From positions 2,221,906-2,285,905 of the forward strand of contig NZ_VULY01000018.1 of assembly GCF_009696485.1 (NCBI RefSeq): DNA of 64,000 nucleotides, read 5' to 3'. The notes beneath the pieces were generated by a model. The model had not been told where the DNA came from. It made no database searches and worked only from the letters and a program-made list of their open reading frames with translations. Source of the DNA: Suipraeoptans intestinalis (lineage in GTDB: Bacteria; Bacillota; Clostridia; Lachnospirales; Lachnospiraceae). This document shows, one piece after another, positions 1 to 2,674 of this stretch. The translations under genes were made by a program, and so were the position numbers. Every line of letters starts with the position of its first letter. Position 1 is the first letter of the stretch.

Positions 1-24
1 TTGCAGAAGAAACAGGAGGCTGTA

Positions 25-1038
25 GTGAATAAGATCATAGAAAATCCGGATACCATATTAGAGGATATGGTAGAGGGGTATCTTGTGTTAAATCAGGGGA
101 GGATCCGTCCCATCTGTGATGAGTCGGGACAGCCGATCAAAGGAGCGCTGACAAAGGTACACGGAAGGAACAAGGTCAGCATCGTGATCGGCGGTGGAGC
201 GGGAAACGAACCGTGGTGCCTGGAATATGTGGGAAAAGGAATGGCGGATGCAGTCGTTTCTGGAAATGTCTACATGGCGCCTCCGGCCTTTTCTCTTCTG
301 GAGGCCGGAAAAGGGATTTATCATGAAAAGGGGATCCTGTTTGTAGGAACCAACCATATGGGAGATCTTCTGAATTTTGAACTGGTGGGAGAATTGCTGG
401 CAACAGACCCCAAAGAGCGGATCGAAACAGAATGTGTATTTGTGAATGACGACGTTGTCAGTGATGAAAAACCGGAAAGAAGAAGAGGGATCGCCGGCAT
501 TTTTTATGCGGTAAAAATGGCGGGAGCGGCTTCGGAAAAAGGCCTGGATCTGGCAGAATGTAAAAGGATCACGCAAAAAGCCATCGACCGCACAAGGACG
601 ATGACGGTGACAACCTCTGCCGGAGTGATGCCTTCCAACGGGATTCCCATGGCGGATCTTCCGGACGGATATGTGGAATATGGCATGGGCTTTAACGGAG
701 AACCGGGAATCAGGCGGGAAAAGCTTCCGGCAGCTTCCGTGATGACAGAGTATATGCTGGAAACTCTGATGGAGGATCTCAAGCTGAGAAAAGAGGAAGA
801 GCTGGCAGTGCTGATCAGCGGTCTGGGAGGAAGCAGCCGGCTGGAGCTTTTGATCGTGGTGCAGCAGGTAAGCAAATGGCTGCGCCATCGTCAGATCCCG
901 GTGTTCCGGATAGAACAGGCAGATATTTTCTGTCCGCAGGAGACAGGAGGATTTTCTGTTACAGTACTGGCACTGGATGAGGAGTTAAAGCCATATTTCC
1001 TGCATCCGGCGGAGATTGACAGATATCACAGAGAATAA
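25..1038 (+). CDS. DhaK-like dihydroxyacetone kinase subunit, active-site His replaced
   Basis: The protein (337 aa) matches the DhaK fold of PEP-dependent dihydroxyacetone kinases: a GGGAGNEP loop near residue 57, a GDLLNFE segment near 113, and MGFNGEPGI near 221. In E. coli DhaK the matching motifs are GGGSGHEP and GIHGEPGI. Their histidines bind dihydroxyacetone, one of them covalently. Both are asparagine here (about N61 and N224), while the acidic NDDV segment remains. The GTG at 25 is chosen because AGGAGG lies 5 nt upstream; an in-frame TTG at base 1 has no visible site. A dhaL-like gene follows directly. No DhaM is visible. Family membership is clear, but the substrate is not: it may bind another carbonyl compound non-covalently, or act as a sensor. 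Confidence 0.85.
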   Translation: MNKIIENPDTILEDMVEGYLVLNQGRIRPICDESGQPIKGALTKVHGRNKVSIVIGGGAGNEPWCLEYVGKGMADAVVSGNVYMAPPAFSLLEAGKGIYHEKGILFVGTNHMGDLLNFELVGELLATDPKERIETECVFVNDDVVSDEKPERRRGIAGIFYAVKMAGAASEKGLDLAECKRITQKAIDRTRTMTVTTSAGVMPSNGIPMADLPDGYVEYGMGFNGEPGIRREKLPAASVMTEYMLETLMEDLKLRKEEELAVLISGLGGSSRLELLIVVQQVSKWLRHRQIPVFRIEQADIFCPQETGGFSVTVLALDEELKPYFLHPAEIDRYHRE

Positions 1039-1055
1039 GCATACGGGTGAAGATT

Positions 1056-1715
1056 ATGACGGCAATAGATAGCAATGAAGTAAGACAGATGTTTTGTGCA
1101 GTAAGCAGACGCATGATCGATATGGAACCATACTTGACGGAGATCGATAACCGAGTAGGAGACGGAGACCACGGAATCGGCATGAAGATTGGATTTTTAC
1201 AGGTGGAAAAGGTTCTTTCCGCCGGAAGGTATGACACGGTTAATCAGGTGTTCCGGGAGATCGGATATACGCTTCTGAAAGTGATGGGCGGAGCGTCGGG
1301 CGTTCTTTTTGGAACCATGTTTGTCAGCGGACTTGTGGGAATGGAAGAGAAGAAACAATTTACGATGGAAGACTTTGCATGCCTGTTCCAAAAATCTGCA
1401 GAAGCGCTGACCAGGCGGGGAAAAGCCGGAATAGGCGATAAGACTATGATGGACGCATTGATCCCGGCGGCCGGAGCGATGAAAGAGGCTTTGGATCTGC
1501 CTTTGGAGGAAGGGTTTCAAAAGGTCGCCAAGGCGGCAGAGGCGGGAATGGAGTACACAAAAGAATGTGTAGCAGCCTTTGGAAGGGCAAGGTACTACAA
1601 GGACAAGGCAAAAGGCTTCCAGGATGCAGGGGCGACCTCCGTCTATCTTATTTTTCAGACCATGGCCGACTGGATCGTAGGGCACGCAGAAAAGCATCGG
1701 GAGGAAACAGTGTGA
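1056..1715 (+). CDS. dhaL: DhaL-like ADP/ATP-binding subunit of dihydroxyacetone kinase
   Basis: This 219 aa protein carries the DhaL signatures: GDGDHG with the upstream Asp (Mg-nucleotide ligands) in the first third, GGASG, GDKTMMD, and a C-terminal DAGATS. In the known system DhaL holds the nucleotide that phosphorylates the substrate bound to DhaK. All metal-binding aspartates appear present, in contrast to the altered DhaK-like partner upstream. The ATG at 1056 is preceded by GGGTGA; an in-frame GTG at 1047 would add three residues. The gene ends overlapping the start of the downstream PfkB-type kinase, so the three are probably one operon. Confidence 0.9.
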   Translation: MTAIDSNEVRQMFCAVSRRMIDMEPYLTEIDNRVGDGDHGIGMKIGFLQVEKVLSAGRYDTVNQVFREIGYTLLKVMGGASGVLFGTMFVSGLVGMEEKKQFTMEDFACLFQKSAEALTRRGKAGIGDKTMMDALIPAAGAMKEALDLPLEEGFQKVAKAAEAGMEYTKECVAAFGRARYYKDKAKGFQDAGATSVYLIFQTMADWIVGHAEKHREETV

Positions 1716-2674
1716 TAGGAACAATGACTTTGAATCCATGTATGGACAAGACCATTACCATTGATGGATTTCACTACGGAGGGCTGAACCGGACCAACGA
1801 AGTCCGGGTGGACGCTTCGGGAAAGGGGATCAACGTATCGATCGCCCTGACGCAGCTGGGCCGGGAAGTGCGCAGCTTCGGAATTGAATTTGAAAACGGA
1901 AGCGAACTGTTCCGGAAACAATTAAAAGAACAGGGGATTTCGTATGAAAGCATTCTGGTTCCGGGAAATTTAAGAGAAAATATCAAGATCCGAAACAGCA
2001 GGGACCGGATCACAACAGAACTGAATCAGAGAGGAGATTACCTTTCTCCCTCTCATGTAAAAGAGTTTTTGGAAAAGCTGTACCAACAGATTCCAAAGCT
2101 GGACGTATTGGTGATCACAGGCTCTGTGCCGTGCGGTGTGGAAACGGACGTATATGCTTCCGTCATCCGGTACGCCAACTGTCACGGGGTAAAATGTATT
2201 CTGGATGCGGAAGGGGAGCTGCTGCTTCGGGGGATCAAAGAAAAGCCGTACCTGATAAAGCCCAATTTTTTTGAGCTGGTCACGGCATTCCATCTGGAGA
2301 AAAAGGGCATGGGAGAGCTGTTGAAGGTGTGCAGGGAAATCCTGCAAAGTGGAGTAAAAGTCATATGCCTGTCCATGGGAGAGAAAGGCGCTTTGATCCT
2401 GGATCGGGAGGAAATTTATTTCTGCCGTCCCAATACATTGGACGTTAAGAGCACACAGGGGGCAGGAGATTCCCTTGTAGCAGGACTTTGCTCTGCCATA
2501 GAAGACGGAAAAGAGCTGTCACAGATGCTTCGCTATGGGGTGGCGGCCGCGCAAGGCTCTCTGATAAAACCGGGAACCCTGCTTTGCACCAGAGAGGACT
2601 TTGAGCATTTTTATCCGATGATACAGATCGAACGGATCGATGAAAAGTCTTTGGAAGGGCTGCTGGACTTTTAG
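1712..2674 (+). CDS. PfkB-family hexose kinase (1-phosphofructokinase / tagatose-6-phosphate kinase type)
   Basis: This 320 aa protein begins with the IGTMTLNPCMDKTI type of start seen in FruK/LacC enzymes. It has SGKGINVSIAL (substrate binding) and a C-terminal TQGAGDSLVAG with the catalytic Asp, the hallmark of PfkB kinases. Such enzymes phosphorylate fructose-1-phosphate, tagatose-6-phosphate or related sugars at the cytoplasmic stage of sugar catabolism. The GTG start at 1712 has GGGAGG 7 nt upstream and overlaps the dhaL stop, which indicates translational coupling. The exact substrate cannot be read from sequence. It is the last gene of the operon and is followed by a terminator. Confidence 0.9.
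   Translation: MIGTMTLNPCMDKTITIDGFHYGGLNRTNEVRVDASGKGINVSIALTQLGREVRSFGIEFENGSELFRKQLKEQGISYESILVPGNLRENIKIRNSRDRITTELNQRGDYLSPSHVKEFLEKLYQQIPKLDVLVITGSVPCGVETDVYASVIRYANCHGVKCILDAEGELLLRGIKEKPYLIKPNFFELVTAFHLEKKGMGELLKVCREILQSGVKVICLSMGEKGALILDREEIYFCRPNTLDVKSTQGAGDSLVAGLCSAIEDGKELSQMLRYGVAAAQGSLIKPGTLLCTREDFEHFYPMIQIERIDEKSLEGLLDF

Follow-up and report, generated by a model that had tools for sequence, protein, structure and literature searches.

A clade of dihydroxyacetone kinase-like proteins without the covalent histidine, and its possible role as ketose 1-kinases in a bacterial sugar cassette

The covalent capture of the substrate by a histidine residue is a known mark of the dihydroxyacetone (Dha) kinases, in the ATP-dependent group and in the group dependent on the phosphotransferase system (PTS) alike (PMC6429413, in the part of its text available). 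The question therefore arises as to what a DhaK-like protein does when this histidine is absent, as is the case for the gene that lies at the start of the window considered here, that is, the whole stretch of 64,000 nucleotides from Suipraeoptans intestinalis (Lachnospiraceae; contig NZ_VULY01000018.1, positions 2,221,906 to 2,285,905). This gene, hereafter DhaK', encodes a DhaK-like subunit with a Dak1 domain, and is followed by genes for a DhaL subunit and a PfkB-family kinase. From the gene's homologues and neighbours, DhaK' and DhaL are predicted to form an ATP-dependent ketose 1-kinase on the scaffold of a dihydroxyacetone kinase, a ketohexose being the foremost candidate substrate, and this kinase would feed PfkB and an aldolase; we put the probability of this reading at about one half.

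Pocket positions are named throughout by what we take to be the residue numbers and roles in Escherichia coli DhaK (His56, Ser80, Lys104, Asp109 and the covalent His218). Alignment with the DhaK of Lactococcus lactis (3ct4) and the Dha kinase of Citrobacter freundii (1un8) places Asn61 and Asn224 of DhaK' at the two histidine positions, and the statement in a preliminary description of this DNA that both active-site histidines are changed to asparagine is thereby confirmed. The pocket is altered at more sites than these two, as Ser80 is replaced by alanine as well (Table 1). The fold, on the other hand, appears to be that of DhaK. The protein scores 262.6 bits against the Dak1 family of Pfam (PF02733, gathering score 31.4), and its AlphaFold2 model, built from a 58-row alignment with a predicted local distance difference test (pLDDT) score of 94.9, matches E. 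coli DhaK with a Z score of 44.9 and 1.9 Å over 327 residues, such that the predicted fold is unchanged from that of DhaK; the Z score to DhaQ (2iu4) is 42.0. Against the functional model for DhaK (TIGR02363, equivalog cut-off 406.25) DhaK' reaches 228 bits, and another protein without the covalent histidine, from locus L041, 270.2, both below the cut-off. In regard to the individual histidines, PDB entry 3pnq is, by its title, the H56N variant of E. coli DhaK crystallised with Dha, and hence a change at His56 by itself need not abolish binding.

DhaK' is no isolated oddity of its genome. Within the source's own family, homologues occur in 72 of 299 genomes (128 matches in total), and among 30 loci read there, six, the window included, are without the covalent histidine and 24 have both histidines. 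One genome per species (84,980 species) was scanned with patterns based on the motif region, which yielded 48 loci, comprising 33 without the covalent histidine, 14 of the His type and one, L082, which does not cover the site and is excluded from the counts. A pattern search of 398 genomes of the phylum found the motif GMGFNGE in three, one of them the window genome. The clade as analysed has 36 rows, these being the 33 scan loci, L087 and L088 from the phylum search and the window; L054 and L087 are identical, which leaves 35 distinct, and L033-L037 duplicate other loci and are counted once. The 56 His-type rows with which it is compared are 40 control loci, the 14 scan loci with a readable His site and the second copies L068_1 and L091_1. 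All 40 controls, which were hand-picked down the family score list and are thus non-random and partly the same genes as the 30 read loci, are of the His type.

At the covalent position the clade has Asn in 34 rows and Ser in two, a count which follows by construction from the use of patterns around the Asn motif, as against His in 56 of 56 His-type rows. The His56 position, again His in all 56 His-type rows, is Asn in 29 clade rows, Cys in four and Leu in three. As a trait of the group, therefore, the double change to asparagine holds for the most part at the covalent site, whereas at the first site there is no one fixed residue. The Ser80 position divides the two sets completely (Ala in 36/36, Ser in 56/56), the catalytic Asp109 is kept in every row of both, and the Lys104 position does not discriminate between them (Thr 28, Gly 5, Asn 2 and Ala 1 in the clade; Gly 28, Lys 27 and Asn 1 in the His-type rows). 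Relocation of the catalytic histidine to His111 of DhaK', two residues past the Lys104 position, was considered and rejected; this residue could matter, but it is not present in every member (His 30, Tyr 5, Phe 1, with Tyr in 56/56 His-type rows). With the motif columns removed, the clade falls on one side of a branch both in a tree of 90 rows (without L082, L084 and L085), where the Shimodaira–Hasegawa-like approximate likelihood ratio test (SH-aLRT) gives 94, and in a more careful tree of 72 rows, without 18 further near-duplicate or long rows, where the support is 99/96. The clade spans Bacillota, Spirochaetota (Treponema) and Fusobacteriota. In other words, the DAK proteins without the covalent histidine are one natural group.

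The group also has a characteristic neighbourhood, which, unlike the Asn count, does not follow from the way in which the clade was found. Counting genes on the same strand within 9 kb, and taking for the main contrast the loci with at least 8 kb of downstream sequence (26 clade, 52 His-type), PfkB is found near 25 of 26 clade loci and one of 52 His-type loci (31/36 and 1/56 over all rows), PfkB with an aldolase near 20 of 26 and none of 52, and the full set of DhaL, PfkB, aldolase, sugar-binding protein and RbsC likewise near 20 of 26 and none of 52; the reference proteins are mostly those of the window operon, with one each from L034 and L036, and the counts of diverged homologues next to His-type genes may therefore be too low. 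DhaL is common to both sets (26/26 and 50/52). The preliminary description had raised the possibility of a clade of Asn-type proteins that co-occurs with DhaL and PfkB, and such a clade is what the trees and neighbourhoods reveal. Most commonly the genes run regulator, DhaK', DhaL, PfkB, aldolase, binding protein, RbsA and RbsC. Of the 36 rows, 22 have a DeoR-type regulator match near by and eight an RpiR-type one. DhaL, which had been described as intact, is indeed so in the window (Table 1), and its GDGDHG motif is retained in 35 of 35 cassette DhaL proteins. L055 and L056 each encode DhaK' and DhaL together in one open reading frame of 597 amino acids, and DhaL is fused to PfkB in single open reading frames at L058:11019-12614 (531 amino acids), L062:11001-12587 (528) and L066:1221-2831 (536), a fusion of which, to our knowledge, there is no earlier account. 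In a search limited to RpiB, TpiA, polyol dehydrogenase and FGGY kinase, with references from three loci of a sister group (see below), the 36 clade neighbourhoods gave 0, 0, 2 and 1 matches, respectively.

The accompanying enzymes point towards ketose phosphates. The window PfkB scores 288.4 against TIGR03168 (cut-off 216.4), a cut-off also exceeded by the PfkB proteins of L041 and L056, and the latter two (298.8 and 297.9) pass the equivalog cut-off of 292 of the 1-phosphofructokinase model TIGR03828, that is, two of the three cassettes tested. The best PDB match of the window protein is a fructose 1-phosphate kinase, 2abq. Of 32 cassette PfkB proteins 30 are full-length, and all of these have Arg84 and Asn86 of the RxN motif, which in E. 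coli Pfk-2 has a role in phosphate binding. All four aldolases tested pass the ketose-bisphosphate aldolase model TIGR00167 (subfamily cut-off 215.6; window 305.6, three others 313.8-339.1). At a finer level, the cut-off of the GatY model (383) is exceeded by the aldolase of L056 (384.7), whereas those of L041 (376.5) and L078 (369.5) fall below it, and of the models that separate fructose-bisphosphate (FBP) from tagatose-bisphosphate aldolases (TIGR01859, NF009374) L056 passes one of each kind, and the window, L041 and L078 neither. The window's binding protein is RbsB-like, but its score with the RbsB model, 126.1, is short of the cut-off of 337, and glycine occupies the positions aligned with Phe164 and Asn190 of RbsB in all 27 cassette binding proteins. 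Assuming that these two residues are ribose contacts in RbsB, the change suggests a ligand larger than ribose.

ATP-binding cassette (ABC) importers bring in unphosphorylated sugar. Given, then, that the importer provides free sugar, that PfkB and the aldolase need ketose phosphates, and that 30 of the 36 rows have no match to a ROK kinase near by, DhaK'-DhaL is the leftover candidate for the first phosphorylation. Moreover, the hydroxyl that Dha kinases phosphorylate is the one adjacent to the carbonyl, in a ketose that of C1, such that the product would be what a 1-phosphofructokinase needs. With regard to the phosphate donor, DhaM (TIGR02364) has no match in the window genome, which is 97.13% complete, the same search being positive in three of 14 control genomes (E. 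coli, L. lactis and Haloferax volcanii); the donor is thus probably ATP. In the pathway envisaged, the CUT2 (RbsBAC-type) importer would deliver a free ketose, most likely a ketohexose, which DhaK' would hold without a hemiaminal through hydrogen bonds from Asn224 and the other changed pocket residues. DhaL would pass the phosphate of ATP to the C1 hydroxyl, PfkB would phosphorylate C6, and the class II aldolase would split the resulting 1,6-bisphosphate into triose phosphates. The ketose may be bound in its ring form; loss of the covalent histidine would fit a substrate that is mostly in this form, since the ring has no free carbonyl to trap. The earlier suggestion of a different substrate, bound non-covalently, in an uncharacterised sugar or ketose pathway draws support from the single clade and from the cassette of DhaL, PfkB, aldolase and importer, and is here still something that we infer.

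A shift of substrate may have begun outside the clade. A sister His-type group of 13 rows (L089-L099, L101 and L103) keeps both histidines, with Gly at the Lys104 position in 12 rows and Asn in L095, and has genes like those for polyol dehydrogenase, TpiA and RpiB each near three of its rows, the gene families having been verified for L097. These neighbours hint weakly at candidate erythrulose-type (tetrulose) kinases, and if so, a move towards longer ketoses may already have taken place in the DAK lineage.

Several observations sit uneasily with a ketose 1-kinase that feeds PfkB and an aldolase. The window PfkB, at 283.9, is slightly under the TIGR03828 cut-off, and the window aldolase, at 337.9, is slightly under that of the FBP-aldolase model (343.05). 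No aldolase match is found near six of the 26 full loci, both Treponema cassettes included, and an outlying member (L057:6619-10954) has no PfkB near by and is adjoined by a zinc dehydrogenase and an aldolase-family protein, perhaps serving a polyol route in which a ketose-1-phosphate is cleaved directly. Six of the 36 rows have a ROK kinase gene in their neighbourhood, and the window operon (L002:11406-14204) and L058 carry both ROK and PfkA, which suggests that a second route, through the 6-phosphate, leads to the same aldolase; ROK and PfkA could process the sugar by that route, leaving DhaK'-DhaL another job. The presence of polyol-type genes in only three of 13 sister rows weakens the tetrulose reading of that group, and a change from His to Asn does not prove non-covalent binding.

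Among the other functions that could be drawn from the same genes, it seems rather unlikely that DhaK'-DhaL acts on some other small or branched ketose or a derivative (a tetrulose, pentulose, apulose or deoxy-sugar), with PfkB and the aldolase acting on its product. The RbsB-like character of the binding protein and the polyol dehydrogenase, TpiA and RpiB genes of the sister group, as in tetrulose pathways, speak for such a substrate, whereas the PfkB and aldolase match ketohexose (bis)phosphate models and the glycines at the two RbsB contact positions suggest a bulkier ligand. An arrangement as in liver fructolysis, with PfkB making the ketose-1-phosphate, the aldolase splitting it into dihydroxyacetone phosphate and an aldehyde (glyceraldehyde, for example), and DhaK'-DhaL phosphorylating this aldehyde as a triokinase, needs the same three enzyme types as are found in the cassette, and 1uoe is, by its title, a crystal structure of E. 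coli DhaK with glyceraldehyde. Nonetheless, we consider it unlikely, since the PfkB is of the phosphosugar-using branch, with its invariant RxN residues and two of three tested proteins passing as 1-phosphofructokinases, and since the triokinase TKFC binds triose through His221 (PMC6429413, in the same part), which a triokinase would have no obvious reason to drop.

A non-enzymatic role is much less probable still. The preliminary description had offered a sensor like DhaQ as an alternative, and the loss of the active-site histidines and the position of DhaK' directly after a regulator gene in the window would agree with a sugar sensor or co-activator of this kind. However, DhaK' scores 160.3 bits against the DhaQ model (TIGR02362), far under its equivalog cut-off of 413.25, and, since the DhaQ of L. 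lactis is itself crystallised with Dha (2iu4, by its title), loss of the histidine does not make a protein DhaQ-like. What DhaK' shares with that co-activator is the Dak1 fold; it differs in its intact DhaL partner and in the DeoR- and RpiR-type regulators near by. The intact DhaL, its fusion with DhaK' (two loci) or PfkB (three loci) and the lack of a DhaM match fit an ATP-dependent kinase better than a sensor, and the single Dak1 match of the window genome leaves no His-type DhaK there to be regulated. Least credible of all is that DhaK' is the decaying pseudoenzyme of one genome. The long branch of the window row (1.14 in the 90-row tree, 1.15 in the 72-row tree) could be taken in this way, against which stand the recurrence of this pocket in 36 rows from three phyla, the unbroken conservation of the catalytic Asp, and the retention of the DhaL motif and of the cassette.

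Set beside known systems, the predicted ketose 1-kinase resembles the DhaK of the DhaKL(M) kinases of E. coli and L. lactis in fold, Dak1 domain, catalytic Asp and DhaL partner, and its clade differs from them in the residues at His218 (Asn or Ser), His56 (Asn, Cys or Leu) and Ser80 (Ala), in the cassette of PfkB, aldolase and importer and, for the window genome, in the missing DhaM match. DAK-type kinases that act on a ketose larger than Dha are reportedly exemplified by the erythrulose kinases LerK and DerK of Mycobacterium, with an RbsB-type importer; the likeness to the cassette is one of description (DAK protein, larger ketose, RbsB-type importer). In the tagatose-1-phosphate route (TagK/GatY type) the 1-phosphate is made by a PTS, after which a PfkB-family kinase and a class II aldolase act as proposed here; the cassette importer, in contrast, is of the ABC type. 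The logic of importer, ketose 1-kinase, 1-phosphofructokinase and FBP aldolase is shared with Haloarcula hispanica, in which, according to the part of PMC11519228 available, ketohexokinase (KHK), FruK and aldolase are encoded in one cluster. There, in the same part of that source, the 1-kinase is of the PfkB superfamily, the aldolase is of class I and hexitols enter through a CUT1 importer, whereas for the window cassette the 1-kinase is proposed to be the DAK-type pair.

It is quite possible, if still tentative, that bacterial ketohexokinase had a second origin, from dihydroxyacetone kinase, with the covalent histidine given up so that larger or cyclic ketoses could be bound non-covalently, and that it feeds an unrecognised pathway of ABC importer, ketose 1-kinase, 1-phosphofructokinase and aldolase in Clostridia, Treponema and Fusobacteria. 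If so, bacteria would have reached the same pathway as haloarchaea with a DAK-type kinase, and the cassette would predict that gut and oral bacteria have a non-PTS route for a keto-sugar. As a well-supported natural group that lacks the covalent histidine and is tied to a compact catabolic cassette, the clade moreover allows the purpose of the covalent bond to be tested directly. Neither His-less DAK proteins nor the DhaK' cassette are described among the literature matches listed, which are titles and abstract openings with subscription journals mostly outside their scope, and this is weak evidence of novelty.

The features of the locus are collected in Table 1. The first eight bases of the DhaK' gene are also the last eight of the DeoR gene upstream, and the DhaK' reading frame has a second open start, the TTG at position 1, upstream of the GTG. 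Above the cut-offs, the genome, scored as 5.52% contaminated, has one more kinase of the 1-phosphofructokinase branch and a further six matches to class II aldolases, and the PfkB and aldolase of the operon are therefore not its sole copies.

Table 1. Features of the DhaK' locus. L002 is the locus of the window genome that reaches upstream; window position = L002 position - 15000.
Feature	Position	Strand or place	Details
DhaK' (DhaK-like subunit, Dak1 domain, covalent His absent)	25..1038	+	GTG start, 337 aa; PF02733, AlphaFold2 model, E. coli DhaK fold match
GGGAGNEP motif	190..213	+	N61 (AAC 205-207) at E. coli His56 position; sequence and alignments
Ala85 codon	277..279	+	E. coli Ser80 position; motif alignments
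TNHMGD	349..366	+	Thr109 at Lys104 position, His111 at Tyr106 position, Asp114 at Asp109 (kept)
GFNGEPGI motif	688..711	+	N224 (AAC 694-696) at covalent His218 position of E. coli DhaK
DhaL, ADP/ATP-binding subunit	1056..1715	+	PF02734 164.3; TIGR02365 173.3 (cut-off 138.3); GDGDHG intact at 1158-1175
PfkB-family kinase, 1-phosphofructokinase branch	1712..2674	+	TIGR03168 and TIGR03828 scores; start overlaps DhaL stop by 4 bases
DeoR-family regulator, 3' end	1..32 (L002 14229-15032)	+	read from the window's own genome
Sugar-binding protein	L002 7816-8769	upstream of window, same operon	family search
RbsA-type ATPase	L002 8860-10359	upstream of window, same operon	family search
RbsC-type permease	L002 10380-11366	upstream of window, same operon	family search
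ROK kinase	L002 11406-12374	upstream of window, same operon	family search
Class II aldolase	L002 12391-13260	upstream of window, same operon	family search
PfkA	L002 13242-14204	upstream of window, same operon	family search

Directly upstream of the sugar operon, at L002:106-7503, lies a gene run with a glycine/sarcosine/betaine reductase gene (PF09338, 705.3 bits) and, as judged by eye, thioredoxin reductase and thioredoxin. Elsewhere in the clade, a protein of the URO-D family (PF01208; 66.0 bits for the L034 copy) is encoded between DhaL and PfkB in three of the 36 rows, namely L078 (L034:7978-9222), L059 (L035:7755-9005) and L060 (ca 1.8 kb past DhaK'), all three of which have Cys at the His56 position. 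The Oribacterium genome of one clade locus has in addition a second DhaK, of the His type, with a DhaL and proteins of 337 and 340 amino acids (L037:14294-17985); the former of these matches URO-D (36.8 bits), the latter has no Pfam match, and genes of a branched-chain-type ABC system, identified by eye, adjoin.
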